This document shows positions 2-12,274 of a stretch of DNA of 64,000 nucleotides, piece by piece. A model generated the notes under the pieces. It worked only from the letters and a program-made list of their open reading frames with translations. It ran no database searches and was not told the origin of the DNA. How positions within the stretch are numbered: the stretch's first letter is position 1; every line of letters begins with the position of its first letter. The position numbers were made by a program, and so were the translations under genes. Source of the stretch: Aquamicrobium zhengzhouense (GTDB taxonomy: Bacteria > Pseudomonadota > Alphaproteobacteria > Rhizobiales > Rhizobiaceae); NCBI RefSeq assembly GCF_016124105.1, contig NZ_JADGMQ010000001.1, positions 186,001 through 250,000 of the forward strand, given 5' to 3'.

Positions 2-160
2 GATCTGTCGCGGGTAGCTTCCCTTATGAAGACCCCCCGCTTGGTCGATTTGCGCAACATCTACCGAACTGATGAAGTCGCGCGCGCCGGGATCGAATAC
101 ACCAGCGTCGGTCGCCGGGCAGAGCTGTCCGAAATTGAAACTCAGGAAGCCGCTGAATGA
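2..160 (+). CDS. ugd: UDP-glucose 6-dehydrogenase, C-terminal end (partial)
   Basis: Only the last 52 codons are in the window; the gene starts upstream. The frame reads through MKTPRLVDLRNIY and ends at a TGA at 158-160. This matches the C-terminal part of the UDP-glucose/GDP-mannose dehydrogenase family, where a Rossmann subdomain ends with a conserved D-R-N-hydrophobic segment. The enzyme oxidises UDP-glucose to UDP-glucuronate in the cytoplasm. The stop overlaps the start of the next gene by four bases (ATGA), and that gene encodes a UDP-glucuronate epimerase, so product and substrate match. The family assignment from so short a piece is good but not certain. Confidence 0.8.
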   Translation, partial: DLSRVASLMKTPRLVDLRNIYRTDEVARAGIEYTSVGRRAELSEIETQEAAE

Positions 161-1167
161 AGTTTCTCGTTACAGGATCGGCCGGCTTTATCGGGTTTCA
201 TCTGGCCTGTCGCCTTCTTGATCAGGGGCATGAGGTGCTCGGCTATGACGGGATGACACCTTATTATGATGTCACCCTGAAGCGATCACGCAATGAGATC
301 CTGCTTGCTAAGCCAAACTACCAGTTTGTCGAGGCCATGCTTGAAGACAAGCCTGCTCTCGATGACGCATTCGCCAGGTTTCAAGCCGATGTGGTTGTCC
401 ATCTGGCGGCGCAGGCGGGCGTTCGTTACGGGCTCGATCATCCGGAAAGCTACATTTCGGCGAATATAATTGGGACCCAAAATCTTTTGGAAGCGGTACG
501 CTCGTGGCGACCAAGGCACCTCCTGATTGCCTCGACTTCTTCGGTTTATGGGGGAAATGAGGAAGTGCCGTTTTCAGAAGATGAGCGCACAGATTTTCCC
601 GTTTCTCTTTACGCCGCGACCAAAAAGGCATGCGAGGCGTTGAGCCACTCCCATGCCCATCTCTGGAAGATCCCGACGACATGCTTCCGCTTCTTCACCG
701 TCTACGGTACGTGGGGCCGCCCGGACATGGCGCTCTACAAATTCGTTGACCTCATCGAACGTGGAGAGCCGCTGGAGATTTACGGCATGGGCCAGATGCG
801 CCGCGATGCGAGCTATGTCGGCGATCTGATCGAGGCGATCGTTCGCCTGACAGATTCCCCGCCTGAGGAGGGCATGCCGGTGAAGGTTGAGGGCGGCAAG
901 GATTCGCTGTCTCCTGTAGCGCCTTGGCGAACCGTGAATATCGGCGGCGGCGAGCCGGTCCCATTGCTTGAATTCGTGGACACGATCGAGCGTCACCTTG
1001 GAAAGACGGCGCAGCGGATCATGCTGCCCATGCAAAAAGGGGATGTGGTCGAGACCTATGCGGACGCGGCGCTGCTTCGCGCGCTGACGGGTTTCGTCCC
1101 CACAACATCAATTGAAGAGACGGTGCGCAGCTTCGTCGATTGGTACCGGGAGTACAGGCGCACGTGA
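157..1167 (+). CDS. UDP-glucuronate 4-epimerase-like NAD-dependent epimerase
   Basis: A 336-residue extended SDR enzyme. The NAD-binding GxxGxxG motif is at residues 7-13 (GSAGFIG). The catalytic set is a Ser in STSSVYG near residue 127 with Tyr152 and Lys156 (YAATK). Sequence style (GYDGMTPYYDVTLKRSRN) resembles LspL/CapI-type UDP-glucuronate 4-epimerases, which make UDP-galacturonate. Overlap with the preceding ugd supports this: ugd makes the substrate. It is the second gene seen of a long plus-strand EPS operon. An epimerase for another UDP-uronic acid cannot be excluded. Confidence 0.85.
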   Translation: MKFLVTGSAGFIGFHLACRLLDQGHEVLGYDGMTPYYDVTLKRSRNEILLAKPNYQFVEAMLEDKPALDDAFARFQADVVVHLAAQAGVRYGLDHPESYISANIIGTQNLLEAVRSWRPRHLLIASTSSVYGGNEEVPFSEDERTDFPVSLYAATKKACEALSHSHAHLWKIPTTCFRFFTVYGTWGRPDMALYKFVDLIERGEPLEIYGMGQMRRDASYVGDLIEAIVRLTDSPPEEGMPVKVEGGKDSLSPVAPWRTVNIGGGEPVPLLEFVDTIERHLGKTAQRIMLPMQKGDVVETYADAALLRALTGFVPTTSIEETVRSFVDWYREYRRT

Positions 1168-1213
1168 ACTGACAGCATACGCATGATCGAGGAACCTACG
1201 GACGGGGGAGTTC

Positions 1214-2272
1214 GTGACCAAGACTGCGTTAATTACCGGAGTAACAGGGCAGGATGGCGCGTTTCTCGCGCGGCTTCTGCTCGACAAGGGGTACATCGTT
1301 CACGGGCTGCGGCGACGCGCGTCAACACCCAACACCAGTCGTGTAGACGGGATTTTGGACGAGTTTGGGAAAGACGGTCGTTTCGCCCTTCACTACGGCG
1401 ATATGACCGACGCCACCAACCTCATCCGGGTCATCCAGACCTGTCAGCCTGTCGAGATTTACAACCTCGCAGCGCAAAGCCATGTCCACGTCTCGTTTGC
1501 GACCCCCGAATACACCGCGAATGCGGATGCATTGGGGACGCTGAGAATGCTGGAGGCCATCCGCATCCTGGGGTTGGAGAAGACGTGCCGCTTCTATCAG
1601 GCGTCGACGTCCGAGCTCTATGGCGATGCCGCTGAGATACCGCAGCGCGAGACGACACCATTCCGGCCGAGGTCGCCCTACGCCGCCGCGAAGCTCTACG
1701 CCTACTGGACCGTGGTGAACTACCGTGAAGCTTACGGACTGCACGCCTCAAACGGGATCCTGTTCAACCATGAAAGTCCTCTGCGTGAAGAAACCTTTGT
1801 TTCCCGCAAGATCACCCGAGCGGCTGCAGCGATCAGCCTGAGGCAGCAAGATCGCCTTCGCCTTGGCAATCTGAATGCGCAGCGCGACTGGGGTCACGCG
1901 CGCGATTATGTTCACGGCATGTGGCAGATGCTGCAGCAAGATGAGCCTGGAGACTATGTATTGGCCACTGGCGTCGCGGCGAGCGTGCGAGACTTTGCGA
2001 CGCTCGCTTTTGCTGAGGCAGGAATAGATCTTGAGTGGGACGGCGAGGGTGTCGAGGAGAAGGCCTTTGACAGATCTTCCGGTGCTTGCCGGATTGATAT
2101 TGATCCCGGCTACTTCCGTCCCACCGAAGTCGACATCGTCGTTGGAGATGCGAGCAAGGCTCGGCAACAACTGGGATGGTCACACCGTATCTGTCTTCAG
2201 GAACTCATCAGAGAAATGGTTCGCGAGGACATCGCCATGCTGAACCACCAACCCGTACGGTTGGAGATCTGA
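1214..2272 (+). CDS. gmd: GDP-mannose 4,6-dehydratase
   Basis: A 352-residue extended SDR. It has the N-terminal GVTGQDG dinucleotide motif, the family-specific NHESPLR segment, and the catalytic Tyr156-Lys160 pair (YAAAK). It converts GDP-D-mannose to GDP-4-keto-6-deoxy-D-mannose, the first step to GDP-L-fucose. The start is a GTG at 1214 preceded by GGGGGAG; the upstream gap of 46 bases is the largest in this operon. The next gene, one base downstream, is the matching GDP-L-fucose synthase, which fixes the pathway. Confidence 0.95.
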
Positions 2273-2273
2273 G

Positions 2274-3218
2274 ATGAGTTCGGCGATCGGCAAACGAGTA
2301 TGGATTGCCGGCGACCGAGGAATGTTGGGAAGTGCGCTGGTGCGTCGAATGGCTGGCGAAGGCTCGCAATTGATTAGCGCAGAGCGAGCGGAGCTGGACT
2401 TTCGCAGGCAGGCAGAGGTCGAAGCATTCCTGCAGCGTCAACGGCCTGATGTGGTTGTAGTTGCCGCTGGTACTGTCGGCGGTATCGCTGCCAACGCAGC
2501 TTATCCCGCGGATTTCCTGCAGGACAATCTTCTCATTGCCGCCAACATCATAGGCGCGGCTCATGCGGCAGACGTTCAGAGACTGCTCTATGTCTCGTCA
2601 AGCTGCTCCTATCCAAAGTGCGCTGCTCAGCCGATCGTGGAGGATGCTCTCTTATCAGGCCCCCTTGAACCGACGAACGAGGCCTATGCCACGGCCAAGA
2701 TCGCGGGCGTCCAGCTGACCAGAGCGTATCACACGCAACATGGGCGCGACTATTTCGTGGCTGTGCCAACCAATCTTTACGGTCCGGGTGACCGTTTTGA
2801 TCTTGAGCGAGGGCACGTGCTGGCAGCGCTGATGAGGAAAGCGCATGAGGCCAAGCGATCCGGTCACACGGAGATCGTCGTCTGGGGTAGCGGGATGCCC
2901 TTGCGCGAGTTCCTCCACGTTGATGATTGTGCGGATGCACTTATCCATCTCCTCATGCATTACCGAGGCGGCGGCGAATTCAATGTCGGCTCAGGCGAGG
3001 AAATATCGATCCTTGAGCTTGCACAGACGATCTGTGAGGTGGTCGGTTTTCGAGGCCACATCACTCACGACCGCTCCAAGCCCGACGGGACCCGGAGGAA
3101 ACTTCTGGATTGCTCACGGCTGCAAGCGCTGGGGTGGGAGCCTCGCATTTCGTTCCGGGAGGGGGTGCAGCAGACCTATCGGTGGTATCTCGACCACATG
3201 GTGGAGGAACCGGCATGA
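2274..3218 (+). CDS. fcl: GDP-L-fucose synthase
   Basis: A 314-residue SDR enzyme (also called WcaG) that epimerises and reduces GDP-4-keto-6-deoxymannose to GDP-L-fucose. Visible motifs are GDRGMLG near the N-terminus, SSSCSYPK, the catalytic YATAK, and NLYGPGDRF, all typical of this family. It starts one base after gmd. Its stop overlaps the next start by ATGA, so translation is probably coupled. The order gmd-fcl-WcaI-like transferase is the one found in colanic acid loci. Confidence 0.94.
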   Translation: MSSAIGKRVWIAGDRGMLGSALVRRMAGEGSQLISAERAELDFRRQAEVEAFLQRQRPDVVVVAAGTVGGIAANAAYPADFLQDNLLIAANIIGAAHAADVQRLLYVSSSCSYPKCAAQPIVEDALLSGPLEPTNEAYATAKIAGVQLTRAYHTQHGRDYFVAVPTNLYGPGDRFDLERGHVLAALMRKAHEAKRSGHTEIVVWGSGMPLREFLHVDDCADALIHLLMHYRGGGEFNVGSGEEISILELAQTICEVVGFRGHITHDRSKPDGTRRKLLDCSRLQALGWEPRISFREGVQQTYRWYLDHMVEEPA

Positions 3219-4480
3219 GGTTCCTCATACTCGCGATCAATTATGCGCCGGAGCCGGTTGGCGCGGGTCGCTATACCGCGGATATGGCACGTTGGCTGGC
3301 CGCCAATGGGCACGATGTCACGGTGGTATGCGCCCAGCCATACTATCCTCAATGGCAAATCAGCGAAGGCTATGGCCAACGCTTCTCAAGCTCGTGGGAG
3401 GAGGGCGTCCGCGTCGTTCGCTGCCCACTCTATGTTCCGGAGAAGCCAACGGGCGCGCGTCGGCTTCTTCACTATGCAAGCTTCGCAGCGAGTGCGTTGG
3501 TGCCGACCATTCTCTCGTCCTTCCGGTACAGGCCCGATCTTGTCTTTGCGGTCGCTCCGACGTTGATGGCGGCCCCGATTGCTGGTCTCGCTGCACAACT
3601 TACTGGTGCCCGTAGCTGGCTTCACGTCCAGGACCTTGAGGTCGATGCGGCTTTCGCAACTGGCCTTCTGCGCTCCGATGGAGCAGTTTCACGCATCGCC
3701 AGAGCGTATGAGGTATTCGTACTTCGGCGCTTTGATCACGTCAGCAGCATATCGCTTCAGATGTGCGAGCGGTTGCCCGCATCTCGTCGCGGCAGTGAAG
3801 CGATTACGCTGTTCCAGAACGGTGTCGACGTCGAGGCGATAAAGCCGCTCGAGGGCCCTTCGCCCTATCGTGCCGAGTGGGGAATAAAGGCGGACCACGT
3901 CGTCCTTTACAGTGGAAGCATTGCGCGAAAGCAGGGCCTGGAGATCGTCGTTGAGGCAGCTCGCATGCTTGCTCATCGGCCGGACGTCGCCTTCGTGATC
4001 TGCGGCAACGGACCGAACCGCACGGAACTGGAAATGAGCGCATCGGGCCTTTCCAACATCTGCTTCAAAGATCTGCAGCCAGAAGCGCGTCTGCGCGAAC
4101 TTCTTGGCCTTGCGACTATTCATGTGTTGCCGCAGATCGAGGGCGCGGAGGATCTCGTGCTTCCGTCCAAGCTGGGGAACATGCTCGCTTCTCAGCGCCC
4201 CATCATCGCAACCGCACGCGAGGGCTCCGGCATCGCAAATGAGCTTGCTCACACCGGGATGATCACCGAGCCGGGTGATCCCGCCGGCCTTGCACGCAGC
4301 ATCGAGAGCCTGGTTGATGACCCGGTCCTGCATCAGCGTTTGGCCACGGCGGCGCGGCGCCGCGCTCTCGAATGCTGGTCACGCGAGAAGATATTCGCGC
4401 AACAGTTCAGGGAGTTTCAGAAGCTCCTGAAGCGTCCCGCGGAAGCGCAGGGCCCTGCAACGGCAGTGACGGCGGATTGA
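3215..4480 (+). CDS. WcaI-like family 4 glycosyltransferase
   Basis: A 421-residue cytoplasmic transferase of the GT-B fold. The N-terminus MRFLILAINYAPEP and the C-terminal LPSKLGNMLAS...REGSG segment are typical of WcaI-type (colanic acid fucosyltransferase-like) GT4 enzymes. The open frame runs further upstream, but the ATG at 3215 overlaps the fcl stop by four bases and gives the standard family N-terminus, so I use it. Being directly after the GDP-fucose genes suggests that it uses GDP-fucose; this is inference. Confidence 0.85.
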   Translation: MRFLILAINYAPEPVGAGRYTADMARWLAANGHDVTVVCAQPYYPQWQISEGYGQRFSSSWEEGVRVVRCPLYVPEKPTGARRLLHYASFAASALVPTILSSFRYRPDLVFAVAPTLMAAPIAGLAAQLTGARSWLHVQDLEVDAAFATGLLRSDGAVSRIARAYEVFVLRRFDHVSSISLQMCERLPASRRGSEAITLFQNGVDVEAIKPLEGPSPYRAEWGIKADHVVLYSGSIARKQGLEIVVEAARMLAHRPDVAFVICGNGPNRTELEMSASGLSNICFKDLQPEARLRELLGLATIHVLPQIEGAEDLVLPSKLGNMLASQRPIIATAREGSGIANELAHTGMITEPGDPAGLARSIESLVDDPVLHQRLATAARRRALECWSREKIFAQQFREFQKLLKRPAEAQGPATAVTAD

Positions 4481-4482
4481 TC

Positions 4483-6027
4483 ATGTCGAGGGAGGTGGCA
4501 CCGATCATCTCTGTCGAAGCTGCCTCGACCCCATATGCAGGCGTCAGTCTTACGAAGAACCTGGTTGCCAACTATTTGCAATTCGCGTGTGCCGCGCTCG
4601 CGAACTTCTTGGTCAGTCCCATCCTTCTGGCGGCGTTCGGCACGACGGGCTTCGGTATGTGGAAATCGTGCCAGCGCATCGTCGAATTGCTACTGCCTGG
4701 CGACGGTGGTCCGCCGCAGGCATTGAAATGGCTCGTAGCAAATGCGGGAGATGACCTTTGCCGCAAACGCATGATGGTCAGTGCGGCACTCATGACTTGG
4801 CTCCGTTGGCTCCCTGCCGTCGCGGCGCTTTCTGGCGTTGTAGTCCTGTTATTCTCTAGCCTTGCAGAAACGGAAGTACCCGCCACCATGGACATAGGCC
4901 GGTTGGCGGTCCTGCTCTGTATCGCTGCACTCTTGAGCGGCCTTTCAGCCATCCCCGCGGCCGCAATGCTTGGTGACGGTCTAGGATATTATGCCGCCTA
5001 CGCAGCTAGTGCCGCGATTGTCCTGACGAGTTCGGTGATCGGACTAGCGGCTTATACCGGTTACGGGTTGGTGGAAGTGGCCGCACTGACAGTCGGCGGT
5101 GCACTGCTGCTCTTATGCGTGACCACTGCCCTTGCTAGCTTGACCCTGGACTGGTGGGGCGCGCAATGGCCAAGCGAAGTGGCGCGCGAGCAATTCGCCC
5201 GGCATTCGGCGTCAATGCTGGTCTGGAGCTATGTCCAGAAGCTTCTCCTTTGCAGCGAAGTCCTTCTGCTGCTTGCCTTCTTGGGTGCGGAAGCCGTCAG
5301 CCAGTATTTTTTCACGGCATTTGCATCCCAGTTCATACCCGCGTTGTGCTTGCTGTCGACAAACGCTTTCCTGCCGCAGCTGGCAACGTGCCTGAGCGGT
5401 GGTGATTGGGGCGACGCAAATCGCCTAATCCGCGCAATCGTGGAACTGAACGCCGCGATCATCATGGTTGCAGGCGCCGGCATCCTGATCGGCAATGCCG
5501 AATTTGTCTCGGTATGGGCGGGCGACGATCAGTTTCTCGGCGACATCAGCAGCGTCCTCATTCTCGTCGTCGCGATCCAGCTCGTACACATACGTCTTCA
5601 TGCTCAGCTTCAGGATGCTGCACTTGCCGCGAGAGCGAGGGAAGGATGGGCGGTCCATGGCGCTGTCGCCGGTATCGCCGGCGGAACATTAGGCTGGTGG
5701 GCTCTTGAGAGCGTAGCGGGAATCTTGGCCGGTCTTATTTTCGGGCGATCCATCTTGAGCTTCATGTTTCCTCAGCTTTCGCGCCGCGCCATCGGAGCCC
5801 CCGGTTTCAGCGGTCTTGAACCCCGGCATTTGCTGTTGCCTGCTACCGTCCTTCTCGCCGCATGGGCTCTTGGCAATTTGTTGGAAGAGGTAGCCTTTGA
5901 TCGATTGCTGATTGTCAGCCCGGCTCTTGCCGCGTTGTTTATCTGGCTTGCCTGGCGGTTTCTGCTGTCGGAGGAAACGCGATCGCTCTTTGCGCATAAC
6001 TTCCTGCCAAACGCGGGGAGGTGTTGA
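4483..6027 (+). CDS. Polysaccharide flippase (Wzx/PST-type membrane protein)
   Basis: A 514-residue protein with about a dozen hydrophobic segments spread over its length and few charged stretches, as in the MATE/PST superfamily of lipid-linked oligosaccharide flippases. The N-terminus has a basic SLTKNLVANYLQF lead into the first membrane helix, as Wzx proteins do. It would move the undecaprenyl-linked repeat unit across the inner membrane. The start is the ATG at 4483, two bases after the preceding stop, with GGCGGA upstream; the frame is open further back. Position beside the polymerase supports the role. Confidence 0.75.
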   Translation: MSREVAPIISVEAASTPYAGVSLTKNLVANYLQFACAALANFLVSPILLAAFGTTGFGMWKSCQRIVELLLPGDGGPPQALKWLVANAGDDLCRKRMMVSAALMTWLRWLPAVAALSGVVVLLFSSLAETEVPATMDIGRLAVLLCIAALLSGLSAIPAAAMLGDGLGYYAAYAASAAIVLTSSVIGLAAYTGYGLVEVAALTVGGALLLLCVTTALASLTLDWWGAQWPSEVAREQFARHSASMLVWSYVQKLLLCSEVLLLLAFLGAEAVSQYFFTAFASQFIPALCLLSTNAFLPQLATCLSGGDWGDANRLIRAIVELNAAIIMVAGAGILIGNAEFVSVWAGDDQFLGDISSVLILVVAIQLVHIRLHAQLQDAALAARAREGWAVHGAVAGIAGGTLGWWALESVAGILAGLIFGRSILSFMFPQLSRRAIGAPGFSGLEPRHLLLPATVLLAAWALGNLLEEVAFDRLLIVSPALAALFIWLAWRFLLSEETRSLFAHNFLPNAGRC

Positions 6028-7454
6028 TGTTGCGAAAGAGCCAGAGCTCCGCAGCACTTTTTGTCTTCCTGTCCCTCCTGCTCGTCGGACTGATTATTGC
6101 GACCTTTCTGATCGAGAACGGGGCGGATGCAGCCGTCATCATCTGCTGCCTGACCATATTTTATGGACTGCTGTGGCGGCCGCTGGTCGTTCCGATCAAT
6201 ATCCGGCCGGAGATCAGGACGTTCGTCAGCATCGAGCTGCTGTTCCTGTTGTTCAGCTTCATGATCTTTTTCGCTCCCTATCAGCTCTATCTTTTAGGCA
6301 GGCTGAACCTAGAGGTGAGCCGGTTCGTGCCGCACACCTTCGCGGAAAAGTCGAACCAGGCGATCCTGTTATCCACTGCCGGGATGGTTGCGTTCTGCCT
6401 CGGGTGCCGTTGGAGAGCGTATTTCCCGCGCAGGACGCAGCCTGCACCGCATGGGCCGGAAGATCGTTCCAGCTTATTGCCCTATCTGGTCTTGTTCCTC
6501 CTGACCGGGCTGATGGCGCTCTACCATCTTGCTGGTTGGCGCGCCGAAGGTGAGGGGCGTTATACCGGCACTGCGGCAGGAGGCGTGATGGCAGACGGTG
6601 TTTCGCTGTTGATCACGATGCTGTCCATGATGGCGTTCGCGATGCTCATCGTCCGGAAACAGCGGAGTGAACGGGCAATACTTCCGGAACTTTGCGCCGC
6701 GATCCTGGCAGGTTTCTGGACCTGCAGGCTTGTGAGCTTTGGCGACCGCAATTCCGCGCTTCTGTTGCTGTTCGTACTATTCGCTGGTGTGGCGACCTTT
6801 CGTTGCACGATCAGCCGGTTGTTGTTGCTCGCGATCGCGCTCTTCGGACTGCAGGTTTATGACCGTATCGAAGCTTACAGAATGACTGGAGACTGGGCAG
6901 CAGGACATCTGCTTTCGTTCGGGCACAATGTTGGTGAGACGAGTTTCAACATTACCACAATCAGTGTTCGTGCCGCTTTGGCTACGGTCCATCACGCTGG
7001 AGAGCTTGGCCTGGGCTTCTATAAGGTCTTTGGATTTGCCGGCGTCGTTCCATTTGTGCGAGGGCTGATTATTGGCGAGCATGAGGTAACGGTCACGAGC
7101 GCGGATGTACTGACCGCTGCCATGCTACCCCCGCATGCGGGATGGAACGTGGGGAGCAATATCATCGCCGATATCTATCTCGATTTCGGGATCATCGGCG
7201 TTCCGATTGTCCTGTATCTGTTGGGCCGGTTTGCCGGTTGGATACAACGCAGGGCGGCGGCTCAACCCTTCTCCACCCACCGGGCCGTCCTTTACTTGAT
7301 GACTGTGGCGCTCTTCGCTGAATTGCCCCGATACGCGGTCGATTTTCCGGTGCGCTATCTGGTCTGGGCGGTGCTGGTGATGATTTTGGCACGCTGGATG
7401 AGCCCACCGGTGTCGATAGTTCATGTTCCGAGAGACGAGCGGGTCTCATGCTGA
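6027..7454 (+). CDS. Wzy-like repeat-unit polymerase (integral membrane protein)
   Basis: A 475-residue, highly hydrophobic protein with roughly ten to twelve predicted membrane helices and a large soluble loop in the second half (around FGHNVGETSFN). This is the pattern of O-antigen/EPS polymerases, which are poorly conserved in sequence. The ATG at 6027 is chosen because GGGGAGG lies five bases upstream and the ATG overlaps the flippase stop (TGATG). GTG 6021 and TTG 6024 are in-frame alternatives. Context between flippase and transferases supports Wzy; the substrate is unknown. Confidence 0.7.
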   Translation: MLRKSQSSAALFVFLSLLLVGLIIATFLIENGADAAVIICCLTIFYGLLWRPLVVPINIRPEIRTFVSIELLFLLFSFMIFFAPYQLYLLGRLNLEVSRFVPHTFAEKSNQAILLSTAGMVAFCLGCRWRAYFPRRTQPAPHGPEDRSSLLPYLVLFLLTGLMALYHLAGWRAEGEGRYTGTAAGGVMADGVSLLITMLSMMAFAMLIVRKQRSERAILPELCAAILAGFWTCRLVSFGDRNSALLLLFVLFAGVATFRCTISRLLLLAIALFGLQVYDRIEAYRMTGDWAAGHLLSFGHNVGETSFNITTISVRAALATVHHAGELGLGFYKVFGFAGVVPFVRGLIIGEHEVTVTSADVLTAAMLPPHAGWNVGSNIIADIYLDFGIIGVPIVLYLLGRFAGWIQRRAAAQPFSTHRAVLYLMTVALFAELPRYAVDFPVRYLVWAVLVMILARWMSPPVSIVHVPRDERVSC

Positions 7455-7939
7455 AGGCGGTATTCCATGCCATCTACAAACGCCTGGACGGGGTCGGATA
7501 TGCCCGCTCCCTTGGCGTACGCGTGGGTGACGGCTGCAGGCTTCTCAACGTCAGCTTCAGCACGGAACCATATTTGGTCACAATCGGAAATCATGTCAGT
7601 GCCACTCATACGCACTTTGAGACGCATGATGGGGGTGTCTGGGTTTTCCGCGAGCATCATCCAGAGCTGGATCTGATCAAGTCGATCGAGATCGGGAATA
7701 ATGTGTTTATCGGCCGTGGCTGCATCATTCTCCCGGGGGCCAAGGTCGGCAACGATGTCGTGATAGGGGCGGGAGCGGTCGTGACCGGCGAAGTTCCCGA
7801 TGGTTGTGTCGCAGCCGGGGTGCCGGCCCGGATCATTGGATCTGTCCGCGATTACGAAGCGAAGGTTCTCGCTGCTGGCAGTCCCACAAAGAATATGTCC
7901 CCCAAACAGAAACGGGCGTTTCTATGCGGAAGCAGATGA
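7448..7939 (+). CDS. Hexapeptide-repeat O-acyltransferase
   Basis: A 163-residue left-handed beta-helix acyltransferase. Imperfect hexapeptide repeats run through IGNNVFIGRGCIILPGAKVG and end with the family's typical AAGVPARIIG. A central THFETHDGGVWVF stretch carries the likely catalytic His. It probably transfers an acetyl group from acetyl-CoA to a sugar of the repeat unit. It overlaps the polymerase by seven bases and the next transferase by four. The acceptor sugar cannot be read from sequence. Confidence 0.8.
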   Translation: MLKAVFHAIYKRLDGVGYARSLGVRVGDGCRLLNVSFSTEPYLVTIGNHVSATHTHFETHDGGVWVFREHHPELDLIKSIEIGNNVFIGRGCIILPGAKVGNDVVIGAGAVVTGEVPDGCVAAGVPARIIGSVRDYEAKVLAAGSPTKNMSPKQKRAFLCGSR

Positions 7940-9000
7940 GGATCTGCTTCATGATCCAGGGCTTTGGCGACGGCGGCGCGCAGAAGCAGTGCATCTATCT
8001 TCTGAACGAACTTCAGCAACGAGTCGGGGTTGAGCTTTTCCTGATCCGCTTTCATGACGGGCAGGTGCACGACAGCCTCCTCGAGATTGAAAATTTGACC
8101 GTGTACACCATCCAGACGAGTTCGAATTATGACCCGCGCAACATCGCGCGCGCCTACCGTCTCATCCGCCGATTGAGCCCAGACATCCTGATGTCGTGGC
8201 TTCCATGCCGCGATGTCTATGCTGGATTTATTCGGGTGCTTTCGCCCCAGCTGAAATGGGTCATGACGGAACGGGATTCATCTTATCCGCGCGCACTGAA
8301 GTTCGTGATCCGACGCTGTGCAGCGCAATTTGCCGATGCGATCATCAGCAACTCAGCAGCGGGGGATGCTTACTGGGCCCGGCGTTCGTCCCGCCCAACG
8401 CGCTTCAAGGTGGACAATATCGTGCCTGGCGGCTTGTTCGCATCGTGTCGCGAGCGGCCTCACTATGATGCGATACATGTCGGTCGGATGGAGCCTCAAA
8501 AGAACATCCTGCCAGTTGCCAGAGCTTTTATTTTACTGGCGCAACGCCGACCAGAGCTGAGCTTCGCGTTTGTGGGCGAGGGGAGCCTGAGGCCGGAGAT
8601 CGAGCGATTGGTGGCGGAGGCGAAGGTAGATCAACAGGTCGAACTTCTGGGCTTCCAGCATGATGTGGCATCCGTGATGCGACGCAGCAAGCTGGTAGTC
8701 ACAATGAGCGACCATGAAGGAACGCCGAACGTTCTCCTTGAAGCGGTGGCCTTTAATATCCCTGTCTTGTGCTCAGATATTTCCGGTCATGGCGACGTGC
8801 TCGGCAAAAACTACCCTCACTATGTGCGCGAGCGGCACGATCCCGATGCGATTGCCAGCCGGCTGGAGAGAATGCTGTCAGCGCATGAGACGCGAGAGCT
8901 TCTTCGAGAGCCAAAATTACGCCTGAGAAGCATGTCGGCAGGTGCGGTCGGCGACGCGTATATGATGGCGTTCAGGCAGATCGTGGGTGCAGACGGATGA
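7936..9000 (+). CDS. Family 4 glycosyltransferase
   Basis: A 354-residue GT-B transferase. The C-terminal nucleotide-sugar part has HVGRMEPQKN, a VGEGSLRPEIE segment and SDHEGTPNVLLEA, the GT4 E-x7-E region. The N-terminus MRICFMIQGFGDGGAQK is typical of GT4 enzymes. The ATG at 7936 overlaps the preceding stop (ATGA) and has GGAAG upstream; an ATG at 7924 is in frame four codons earlier. Donor and acceptor are unknown. Confidence 0.85.
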   Translation: MRICFMIQGFGDGGAQKQCIYLLNELQQRVGVELFLIRFHDGQVHDSLLEIENLTVYTIQTSSNYDPRNIARAYRLIRRLSPDILMSWLPCRDVYAGFIRVLSPQLKWVMTERDSSYPRALKFVIRRCAAQFADAIISNSAAGDAYWARRSSRPTRFKVDNIVPGGLFASCRERPHYDAIHVGRMEPQKNILPVARAFILLAQRRPELSFAFVGEGSLRPEIERLVAEAKVDQQVELLGFQHDVASVMRRSKLVVTMSDHEGTPNVLLEAVAFNIPVLCSDISGHGDVLGKNYPHYVRERHDPDAIASRLERMLSAHETRELLREPKLRLRSMSAGAVGDAYMMAFRQIVGADG

Positions 9001-10061
9001 TCATTGTTATCGCCCCGATCCCACCGCCGCTTGATGGAGCCTCGTCAGTCTCCAAGGATGTCGTGAACCTTCTGACAGAAGAGAGAATCGCGCATCGGGT
9101 TTTCACCATGTCTCCCGCGTTGGGAGGAGGGCGAGCGATTTATCATGTCTCCCGTCTGGCGAGGTATCTGAGAGCCTGTCTGGGCGTCGCCACAGCGCGA
9201 CGTTCAGACCAGATATACCTGTCACTGGCAGGAGGCTGGGGGCAGGTTTATGATCTCGCGGTAGTCGCACTGGCTAGGTTGCGCGGCCTGAACGTTCACT
9301 TCCACCACCATAACTTCACCTATGTCGACCGGCGAGCTGCTACGTTTAGTGCGATCATATTCGCTGCGGGTGAGCGGCAGTTTCATTATGCGCTATGTGA
9401 ACGCATGAAGGAGTTGCTGGAGCAGCAATACCCGGCGATCAAGAACGTGAGCGTCATTTCGAACGAAGCCTGGTGGCCGATTGCCACCGACATCCCGCCT
9501 TCTGAAGCGCCGCTTCGCCGGATCGGTTTCATCGCAAACATCACCCGCGAAAAAGGGGTGCTCAACTTCCTCGACCTCATACGCGAGTTGCGAGCGCGAG
9601 GCTCTAACATCGAAGGCTGGATCGCTGGTCCTTGCACGGATAAACGCCTTCTGAGCGATGTCCTGGCGCGGGCGGAGTTCCTTGGCGGCGTCGAATATCG
9701 GGGGCCGGTGTATGGCTCCGAGCGGGACGCTTTCTTTCGTGAGATCGATCTGCTGGTGTTTCCGACAGCTTATCCGAATGAAGCTGAGCCGCTGGTCGTG
9801 CTGGAGGCTCAGCGGTTAGGCGTGCCGGTCGCGGCAAGTGATCGTGGTTGCATCGCCTCGATGCTTGGTTCGGCGCCCGGACTGTTGCTCGATCGTGACG
9901 GGCGGGAAATCGCCAGTTTGGCAGACAAGATCATCATGCTGTCGGAAAATCCGACGCAGATGGCCCATCTGCGCCAATCCGTGCGTTCTTTGCTGAGAGG
10001 ACGCACTGCCGAGAATTCGGCAGCACGCAGCGCATTTCTTTTCGCCCTCGGTCGAAGGTGA
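8997..10061 (+). CDS. Family 4 glycosyltransferase
   Basis: A 354-residue GT-B transferase, the last gene of this plus-strand EPS operon. The N-terminus IAPIPPPLDGASSVS is a glycine/serine loop seen in GT4 enzymes. The C-terminal half has IGFIANITREKG and the FPTAYPNEAEPLVVLEA stretch that carries the nucleotide-binding glutamates. It overlaps the previous gene by four bases. After its stop the strand switches, and a 46-base convergent gap separates it from the spike-like gene. Confidence 0.85.
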   Translation: MIIVIAPIPPPLDGASSVSKDVVNLLTEERIAHRVFTMSPALGGGRAIYHVSRLARYLRACLGVATARRSDQIYLSLAGGWGQVYDLAVVALARLRGLNVHFHHHNFTYVDRRAATFSAIIFAAGERQFHYALCERMKELLEQQYPAIKNVSVISNEAWWPIATDIPPSEAPLRRIGFIANITREKGVLNFLDLIRELRARGSNIEGWIAGPCTDKRLLSDVLARAEFLGGVEYRGPVYGSERDAFFREIDLLVFPTAYPNEAEPLVVLEAQRLGVPVAASDRGCIASMLGSAPGLLLDRDGREIASLADKIIMLSENPTQMAHLRQSVRSLLRGRTAENSAARSAFLFALGRR

Positions 10062-10107: not shown

Positions 10108-11724
10108 TCACCATCCTTTTGCAGTGATAAAATTTGCGATGGCAGCCGCCATTATCTCCATCGCAGTACCGGAGAGGTGTGTCGCATCAAGATCCGGATC
10201 GCGAAACATCTCTCTTGCAGGCGCACCGTTTGGGTCGAGGTCCAGACGATCGCGCCAATCCAGAACGTTGTGAGGCCACCGAGCCTTCAGCTCGTCCCGG
10301 ATGGCGTCTGAGATTGTCATGTCGGTCTCCAGCAAATTCGCGCATGCCGGAATAATGACGAAGCGCTGATGTCCGATCTGCCGCAGTCCGGTTGCCAGAC
10401 TTTCACAGTACGGTGCCACCTGAGAGAGGGTATCGACGGGGTTTTCCGATCCATCCCAAATCACAGTCGTCTTGGGACGCAGATGCCGGAATTCTGTCGA
10501 GCTCAGCCGTTCGCTGATTTCTGGCATGGTCGAATTGCCCGATGCAGTCGTCATCACGGTGCGGTCCGTGATGGATTCCAGCCTTGAGATAATGGATCCG
10601 GCAGGGCCGCCGCCGTGGCCGTGCGTCATGAAGCTGTCGCCTTCGCAGCGGATCAGATTGGGAATCAGCGAGTAAAACGCCTCGACGCCACTTTCCCTGT
10701 AGAGGGTCAGTCGTTCAATCTCGCCATTCCAGACTTGGCCGTGAAAGCTGTGTCCAAGCCGCATGACTGCGAGGCCGGGTAAAACACCAAGATCATCATG
10801 AACGGCCTTCCCATCATCAAGCTGCGCGAAAAACGCATTTGCGGCAAAACCGGCTCGGATGAAAAACCGGGTTTCGGGAGCAACAGTACCCAGGTTGAGC
10901 GCGGCCTGCACGTGTGACGCAGCCCGCACTTCGACCACGAGAGAGCCGTCTAGCTGGTAGGCGACCAGAGTTTCATCTCCCGGGTCCGCGGTCATGAGGT
11001 GACCACACGACCAGAGCACCTCGCGAGCTGTGGGGGATGGTGGCGTTTTCGCTGCGATCTCGATGGTCATACCCGAGCCGGAAAGCCCCTCGAGCGGCAG
11101 ACAGGGTTTTACGCTCACGTCGCTCACCATTGTCGTCCCGGCAGATGCGCGGAACGCATAGAAATGGGAAATCGGACCGCGCGCAGAGAACGTATCCGTG
11201 TGAATGCCTGGTCCACGGGTGCCGCCCGCTGCGCCAGGAGCAGTTTCTCCTGTCGTCCCGCCTATCCGGAAATTCGTCGTTCCTCCTGAGACGGTGTAGG
11301 TCACCGAGTACGCAGCGCCTTCCGTCGTCATAATCGGTTGGGTAATGCCCGCACCGCCGCCGCCCACGCCTGTCGTCCCATCCGAGAAGAGCCGGGCAGC
11401 GCCAGGTAACGCAGTTGCGGTTGAAGTGCCGTTGACGATCTGGTTCCAGCCAGCCAGCTCCAGCTGTTGAAAGTCGCCGTTCGTGATCAGTTCTGGCGAG
11501 TCGGGGCTGCTATACGGTTTGAACGCGACGGTCTTCCCGTAAGGGGTGCCGCCCGCCGCAATCAGAAAATCAGTTTCAGTCGCATAGCTCACGCCGTTGA
11601 ACCGGTAACGACCTTCCTGGAAATTCGCGTCAAGTAGCGCGCCTTGCGCCCACGACGAATCGGAAGGAGGTCTTATGGCGGCTGCCGGCGATAGCCTGCC
11701 GAGATGGAGACCGGTACCACTCAT
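10108..11724 (-). CDS. Spike/tail-fibre-like protein with C-terminal SGNH hydrolase domain (GhsB-like candidate)
   Basis: A 538-residue multidomain protein. The N-terminal half carries low-complexity Gly/Thr/Ala stretches and an ELITNGDF...W segment typical of carbohydrate-binding-like modules, then a concanavalin-like stretch. The last third reads as an SGNH/GDSL esterase: GDSF for the nucleophile (near residue 360), a later GSEN segment, and a C-terminal D-x-x-H (DATHLSG) for the catalytic pair. No signal peptide is visible. The ATG at 11724 overlaps the stop of the spike-base gene (TGATG), so the two are co-translated; GTG 11730 is possible. In Rhodobacter capsulatus the homologous second gene of such a pair encodes a gene-transfer-agent head spike that binds capsule. 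A prophage remnant is the alternative. Confidence 0.65.
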   Translation of the reverse strand: MSGTGLHLGRLSPAAAIRPPSDSSWAQGALLDANFQEGRYRFNGVSYATETDFLIAAGGTPYGKTVAFKPYSSPDSPELITNGDFQQLELAGWNQIVNGTSTATALPGAARLFSDGTTGVGGGGAGITQPIMTTEGAAYSVTYTVSGGTTNFRIGGTTGETAPGAAGGTRGPGIHTDTFSARGPISHFYAFRASAGTTMVSDVSVKPCLPLEGLSGSGMTIEIAAKTPPSPTAREVLWSCGHLMTADPGDETLVAYQLDGSLVVEVRAASHVQAALNLGTVAPETRFFIRAGFAANAFFAQLDDGKAVHDDLGVLPGLAVMRLGHSFHGQVWNGEIERLTLYRESGVEAFYSLIPNLIRCEGDSFMTHGHGGGPAGSIISRLESITDRTVMTTASGNSTMPEISERLSSTEFRHLRPKTTVIWDGSENPVDTLSQVAPYCESLATGLRQIGHQRFVIIPACANLLETDMTISDAIRDELKARWPHNVLDWRDRLDLDPNGAPAREMFRDPDLDATHLSGTAMEIMAAAIANFITAKGW

Positions 11725-11984
11725 CAGCACAGCCCCACGAGATAGGCTGCCGTTGTTTGCTGGAGAACCTTGCGGACCCGCAGCGGAAGAATGGATCCCT
11801 GAGGCACGTCCTTAAAAGTCAGGGACGCGCCATCCCGCATTTCCACTGCAAGATCGCCTCCTTCACCCACGTAAAGGGCGCGTGTGACCTGTTGAAGATC
11901 GGAGGAATCGCTCGGGGTAATGGCGAATCCCTCATTCGCCGGCGAGTCGAGTGCGGGTGCTAGGGTGGCGTATTTGTCCTGCAT
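11724..11984 (-). CDS. Spike base protein, RCAP_rcc01079 (GhsA) family
   Basis: An 86-residue protein with the full length and pattern of the small alphaproteobacterial spike base family: ITPSDSSDL near the N-terminus, RALYVGEGGDLAV in the middle, and VPQGSILPLRVRKV...VGL at the end. In Rhodobacter capsulatus the family member Rcc01079 (GhsA) forms the base of the RcGTA head spike, and its gene lies outside the main GTA cluster, as seems to be the case here: no capsid, portal, terminase or tail genes are in this window. It lies 214 bases from tRNA-Val. Confidence 0.75.
   Translation of the reverse strand: MQDKYATLAPALDSPANEGFAITPSDSSDLQQVTRALYVGEGGDLAVEMRDGASLTFKDVPQGSILPLRVRKVLQQTTAAYLVGLC

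Positions 11985-12198: not shown

Positions 12199-12274
<76 letters not shown>

Follow-up and report, generated by a model that had tools for sequence, protein, structure and literature searches.

We propose, with about even confidence, that the two genes at positions 10108-11984 of the window (the whole stretch analysed, 64,000 nucleotides of an Aquamicrobium zhengzhouense contig) encode a head spike of the type carried by RcGTA, the gene transfer agent of Rhodobacter capsulatus, and that an SGNH esterase at the end of its fibre deacylates the polysaccharide of the adjacent EPS block. The proposal draws on the family assignment of the spike base, on the C-terminal domain of the fibre with its putative catalytic residues, and on a comparison with the same locus in Aminobacter sp. 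J41.

A head-spike gene pair between two EPS blocks

The first gene of the pair (11724-11984, minus strand) encodes an 86-residue, ghsA-like protein that the first-pass annotation had placed in the RCAP_rcc01079 spike base family. This placement holds, with a score of 106.5 bits against the NF048002 model (RCAP_Rcc01079 family; cut-off 28). PHROG 12296 was matched as well, and a profile built from 10 sequences, the window base among them, found the solved RcGTA base 6tb9 with an E value of 9.8e-20. The base is the single match of its kind in the whole genome (4.07 Mb, 29 contigs). The second, ghsB-like gene (10108-11724, minus strand) is delimited by its open reading frame and by an ortholog in J41, and encodes the predicted fibre with its C-terminal SGNH domain. 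The ATG of the fibre overlaps the TGA of the base as TGATG, in line with the overlap noted in the first pass. The fibre length of 538 residues is counted from this ATG, and a 540-residue form starting from a GTG stands in the list of open reading frames. Such a stop/start overlap (TGATG or TAATG) was found in 24 of 31 collected base-partner genes, the window pair counted, a set hand-picked from the fetched loci that leaves aside those with no partner frame beside the base.

The pair is convergent with an EPS block on the plus strand (157-10061), which contains sugar-nucleotide enzymes, glycosyltransferases, a flippase and Wzy, and which is delimited by Pfam matches for some genes and by synteny with J41. 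Four genes of this block were tested against Pfam, with matches for a glycosyltransferase, a hexapeptide acyltransferase and Wzy; the scan gave no match for the flippase, and the other names, several in all, were given by inspection. The acyltransferase (7448-7939, plus strand; PF00132, 2.8e-10) sits between Wzy and a glycosyltransferase. On the other side the pair is flanked by a tRNA-Val (12199-12274, minus strand), a landmark that is kept in J41 together with two tRNA-Asp. Further tRNA genes, a MarR-type regulator, a monooxygenase and cobalamin genes (the last three named by eye) fill the distance to a second EPS block at about 17982-43105, and the pair is indeed located between two EPS blocks, as had been described. 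The parallel drawn at first with R. capsulatus is close, where the head-spike genes adjoin the capsule genes and are co-regulated with them, according to excerpts of the source (PMC10218006). No phage genes were recognised by eye around the pair in the gene lists of the window and of J41. The same lists, likewise read by eye, led us to reject a complete prophage surrounding the pair.

The fibre and its C-terminal SGNH domain

The whole fibre is an outlier in most searches. Nothing useful was obtained against Pfam, NCBIfam and PHROG (one NCBIfam match, E 0.12), and the curated GTA fibre model NF048003, matched by 13 of the 31 partner fibres, left it unmatched at E 0.1. Models of the rcc01079/rcc01080 type, which the first pass had named for this pair, thus recover the base (NF048002) but not the fibre, and a standard NF048003 identity of the fibre was rejected. 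A tblastn search of the whole fibre against phages returned none at E 0.01, and scans of viral contigs with the full fibre and with the SGNH part by itself confirmed no relative. Among the matches listed in a search of 397 genomes of the order, in which at most three candidates were scored per genome, only the genome of the window and that of the relative G663 appear.

At the N-terminus, residues 2-10 (SGTGLHLGR; 11695-11721, minus strand) line up position by position with the star peptide of RcGTA, given as IALGLGLGL in excerpts of PMC7296036, and would form a degenerate star peptide in which two of the five hydrophobic positions are kept. A neck module (residues 18-53; 11566-11673, minus strand) resembles that of 10 other spike fibres, mostly from Devosia, in an hhalign comparison over 36 columns (probability 63, E 7e-5). 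The middle region that follows (residues 33-337; 10714-11628, minus strand) matches 824-residue proteins of G663 over residues ~33-337 with 30-32% identity (one match 30%, E 2e-13), and a related fibre of the relative G063 carries a Laminin_G match below cut-off (E 1.2e-4). These two matches suggest that the middle region is probably carbohydrate-binding. The sugar-binding character ascribed to the protein in the first pass is not directly supported, because the fibre gave no Pfam, PHROG or meaningful NCBIfam match, and what stands of it is this likeness to the G663 and G063 proteins. The 824-residue protein with this middle region occurs in two copies in G663 (L101 7676-10149; L100), and one of the two genes lies two genes behind a 1298-residue megatron-like gene, as judged by the start of its sequence.

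The C-terminal domain (residues 349-538; 10111-10680, minus strand) is, judged from its sequence, an SGNH domain related to those of phage fibres, with the catalytic residues Ser364, Asp513 and His516 in place. Family alignment and profile matches to solved SGNH proteins both bear out the SGNH domain seen in the first pass, and the catalytic triad on which that reading turned is present in the alignment. The domain aligns with the C-terminal regions of viral-contig proteins, two of them annotated as Rhodococcus phage tail fibres, and a tblastn search with it against phages returned four records, all from Rhodococcus phages, at E 0.1-0.3. Residues 281-538 match a 978-residue fibre of G063 with an E value of 6e-12. 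This G063 fibre sits in a region that appears phage-like by eye. A profile of seven SGNH sequences, carried mainly by five viral-contig proteins, matched PDB 9sij with an E value of 2.3e-20 and PAF acetylhydrolase with an E value of ~2e-6. A two-sequence profile is weak when used by itself (PAF acetylhydrolase E 0.024, 9sij E 0.047). The profile matched both 9sij and 9sim, which are each titled 'Tail spike protein'. The match to PAF acetylhydrolase and other SGNH/GDSL esterases (E 2e-6) extends over the first half of the window domain; these proteins were solved as free enzymes, whereas the window domain ends a fibre.

Ser364 lies in a GDS motif of block I (10633-10635, minus strand), and Asp513-x-x-His516 forms the DATH motif of block V (10177-10188, minus strand). 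The Ser and the Asp-x-x-His are kept in seven of the eight aligned SGNH members, one of which has GNS instead of GDS, and J41 alone has lost all three residues. Asn428 in the sequence GSEN (10441-10443, minus strand) aligns with the GTNN of PAF acetylhydrolase and is a possible block III Asn, in an alignment that is ambiguous by one residue and not canonical; the block III Asn of SGNH proteins belongs to a GxND motif. SGNH hydrolases have an alpha/beta/alpha, flavodoxin-like fold; the AlphaFold2 (AF2) model of the domain (pLDDT 76.4, pTM 0.77) is of alpha/beta type, with alternating strands and helices, Ser364 after strand 1 and Asp513-His516 before the last helix at a local pLDDT of ~59. The model of the full-length fibre, from two sequences, was useless (pLDDT 41).

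A GTA cluster on another contig

The first pass had expected a GTA structural cluster elsewhere in the genome, with the pair away from it, and an RcGTA-type cluster does lie on another contig than the spike pair (C23, 219000-238000), though in-frame stops interrupt its genes for the prohead protease and the tape measure. The cluster comprises terminase, HK97 portal, capsid, head-tail connector, head closure, distal tail protein, hub and baseplate genes. Its megatron is full (1669 bits), and a tape-measure piece scores below the model cut-off (146 against 220 bits). The tape model is matched in seven of the eight genomes of the genus, in none above cut-off, with open frames of 173 residues in the window genome, 194 in G007 and 204 in G006. 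The prohead protease and tape-measure copies of G007 are uninterrupted. In the GTA cluster of J41, a stop interrupts the capsid gene, and the terminase and tape-measure genes have broken frames. The breaks may be real decay or errors of the draft sequence. With in-frame stops in both protease and tape measure, particle production in this genome is doubtful; the terminase, capsid and megatron are open, which suggests breaks of recent date or mistakes of assembly. Two other regions of the genome are phage-like, one on contig C12 with a tape measure that includes a lysozyme domain and one on C28 with an HK97 capsid.

Comparison with Aminobacter sp. J41

J41 has the same pair, with 69% identity for the base and 52% for the fibre, set between the same EPS block and the same group of a tRNA-Val and two tRNA-Asp. 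The comparison with relatives envisaged at first thus reveals synteny of both the EPS block and the spike pair. Within the block, whose gene names in J41 are partly by inspection, the identities are 80% for the epimerase, 82% and 67% for the next two sugar-nucleotide enzymes, 59% for a glycosyltransferase, 45% for the flippase, 56% for Wzy and 57-58% for two glycosyltransferases. Among the eight genomes of the genus, only the window genome and J41 share a full-length ortholog of the glycosyltransferase that adjoins the pair, and the other six gave partial matches of 25-32%. Because this ortholog is confined to the two genomes, the EPS block and the pair appear to go together there; the spike base and the glycosyltransferase ortholog occur jointly in the same two of the eight.

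Between the window and J41, dN/dS was estimated at ~0.13 for the base and ~0.21 for the whole fibre, within which residues 1-345 gave 0.17 and the SGNH part 0.28. The neighbouring glycosyltransferase gave ~0.23, and four GTA genes with open frames lie at 0.07-0.11. These are rough values, given that dS of the spike genes is 1.6-2.1 and near saturation. These values bear on another explanation, in which the lineage no longer has a functional GTA and the spike pair is a relic, or on its way out, with genes that have not yet decayed. The broken GTA genes of both genomes fit it, as do the base of G007, which has no fibre beside it, and the bases at most of 24 loci beside xseA, which stand without an adjoining fibre under a reading-frame rule. 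However, neither spike gene is interrupted in either species despite a large divergence, and dN/dS is low; frames kept in this way speak against a long-dead relic. The open terminase, capsid and megatron of the window genome, with breaks that are recent or possibly artefactual, point in the same direction, and we regard a relic as unlikely.

The two genomes also differ in the acyltransferase. A search with the window acyltransferase against the whole 21.6 kb J41 contig gave no match at E 1; in J41, Wzy abuts the glycosyltransferase and no acyltransferase lies between them. The seven other genomes of the genus gave partial matches only, the best with 53% identity over ~65 residues. Hexapeptide-type matches number five in J41 and, with the gene of the block counted, five in the window genome, so that in either species acyl groups could be added by an enzyme encoded elsewhere. 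The window locus therefore combines the acyltransferase with a live triad and the J41 locus lacks both, which gives one contrast between the two genomes. This suggestive pattern would be expected if the esterase acts on the polysaccharide of the adjacent locus, and proves nothing alone. The tie to the nearby acyltransferases proposed in the first pass gains from the absence of the gene where the triad is dead, but amounts to this single contrast.

In J41 the SGNH domain is kept at 45% identity although Ser is replaced by Ala, Asp by Gly and His by Arg. The persistence of this dead domain implies that catalysis is dispensable there, and raises the question of whether the domain has become lectin-like, binding an acylated sugar while catalysis is not what selection maintains. 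The J41 domain, still at a dN/dS of ~0.28 with all three residues gone, agrees with that explanation; the window copy, by contrast, keeps Ser364, Asp513 and His516, as do six of the seven other aligned members, and a lectin-like role in the window seems to us distinctly unlikely. It is improbable that the pair belongs to a resident prophage or is left over from one: phages have spike bases too (102 records at E 0.01), the phage-like region of G063 has a fibre with the same SGNH domain and phage-like genes are present on C12 and C28, but the surroundings of the pair in both species lack phage genes recognisable by eye, its position beside EPS genes mirrors that in R. capsulatus, and the whole fibre has no tblastn match in phages at the threshold used.

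Proposed role of the spike and known systems

We infer the assembly, binding, activity and substrate of the proposed GTA head spike as follows. By analogy with RcGTA, five copies of the base on a capsid vertex would hold one fibre by its N-terminal peptide, the arrangement seen in RcGTA. The middle of the fibre would bind the polysaccharide made by the adjoining EPS block, and the C-terminal SGNH esterase would remove acyl groups from it, probably those added by the hexapeptide acyltransferase of the block itself. Binding of the particles may then be reversible and let them pass through the coat of sister cells, as is thought for phage G7C on O-acetylated O-antigen. Whether the present strain still makes the particle is doubtful. 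The deacylating spike suggested in the first pass thus holds up in its essentials, subject to the interrupted GTA cluster of this assembly and to the loss of the catalytic residues in J41.

The RcGTA spike GhsA/GhsB (Rcc01079/Rcc01080), which binds capsule, is the one GTA head spike that we found described. It shares the base family with the window pair, and both are ectopic two-gene loci adjoining polysaccharide genes, as far as excerpts of the sources describe the former (PMC10218006, PMC7296036, PMC8601537). At 538 residues the window fibre is longer than that of RcGTA (325); it carries an SGNH domain, has a weak star peptide and fails to match NF048003. No enzyme on the RcGTA head spike is reported in the literature examined, and searches of the open-licence literature listed no paper that describes a GTA head spike with an esterase.

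SGNH-type esterases are found in receptor-binding proteins of phages. According to excerpts of PMC10743462, phage G7C removes acetyl groups from O-antigen with its tail spike gp63.1, and host mutants that lack O-acetylation resist infection; Klebsiella prophages have two SGNH fibres that are described as active esterases in part of PMC13123978. The window fibre resembles these proteins in its domain but is predicted on a GTA-type head, beside the EPS genes of the cell, whereas they sit on phage tails. The RcGTA tailspike TspA (Rcc02623) is an enzymatic, virion-associated GTA protein that degrades biofilm, and the words 'esterase', 'SGNH', 'GDSL' and 'deacetyl' are all absent from its text (PMC13420450). 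TspA is attached to the tail; the window spike is predicted to be head-borne.

More broadly, and with less confidence, GTA head-spike fibres may form a modular, enzyme-bearing class that tracks the coat chemistry of the cell itself, a generalisation we consider somewhat unlikely at present: the spike operon would travel with the EPS locus, the esterase would be alive with the acyltransferase and die without it, and a domesticated virus would co-evolve with the polysaccharide of its population. A spike esterase beside the genes for its presumed substrate would offer a direct test of how GTAs restrict transfer to coat-sharing kin and of why spike and polysaccharide loci are linked, and it would extend the SGNH deacetylases of phage tails by an example borne on a head.

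Distribution of spike bases and their surroundings

Spike bases are patchy in distribution. They were found in 14 of 100 genomes in a set of relatives (own genome included; 13 over cut-off), where a megatron match was found in 81 (73 over cut-off), in 11 of 385 genomes in a sample of the class (own included; 10 over cut-off), and in three of the eight genomes of the genus. In G007 (L026 9704-9964), the base directly adjoins other EPS-type genes and has no fibre beside it.

EPS-type genes lie within ~10 kb of the base at 12 of 43 spike-base loci, compared with two of 20 control windows, which were placed at regular, non-random intervals along four contigs of the genome to which the window belongs. 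The count is not phylogenetically independent, since seven of the 12 positive loci are from Devosia and one is the J41 ortholog, and all 19 EPS queries come from the window. The loci differ in length. The positive loci fall entirely outside the xseA site (0/24 there, 12/19 elsewhere). A further 20 spike-base loci, which may overlap the 43, gave five with EPS-type genes, and three GTA or phage-like loci gave none.

A 4.2 kb contig of the order member G061 (L032 1126-2810) carries a spike pair that is separated by a single gene from the C-terminal end of a GTA megatron. In the fibre of this pair, a clear star peptide (MLGLGLNI) is accompanied by a Laminin_G domain and by a SASA carbohydrate-esterase domain (E 1.4e-20). 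Together with the SGNH fibre of the window, this makes at least two predicted head spikes that bear an enzyme, each from a different enzyme family.

Rhizobium-type spike bases beside xseA are followed by a full-length fibre in four of 24 loci under the reading-frame rule (L060, L074, L076 and L083). Longer fibres of 703, 1007 and 886 residues are present near polysaccharide-type genes in other members of the class (L105, L106 and L108, respectively), and the 886-residue fibre carries DUF1565 and pectinesterase matches, both below cut-off.
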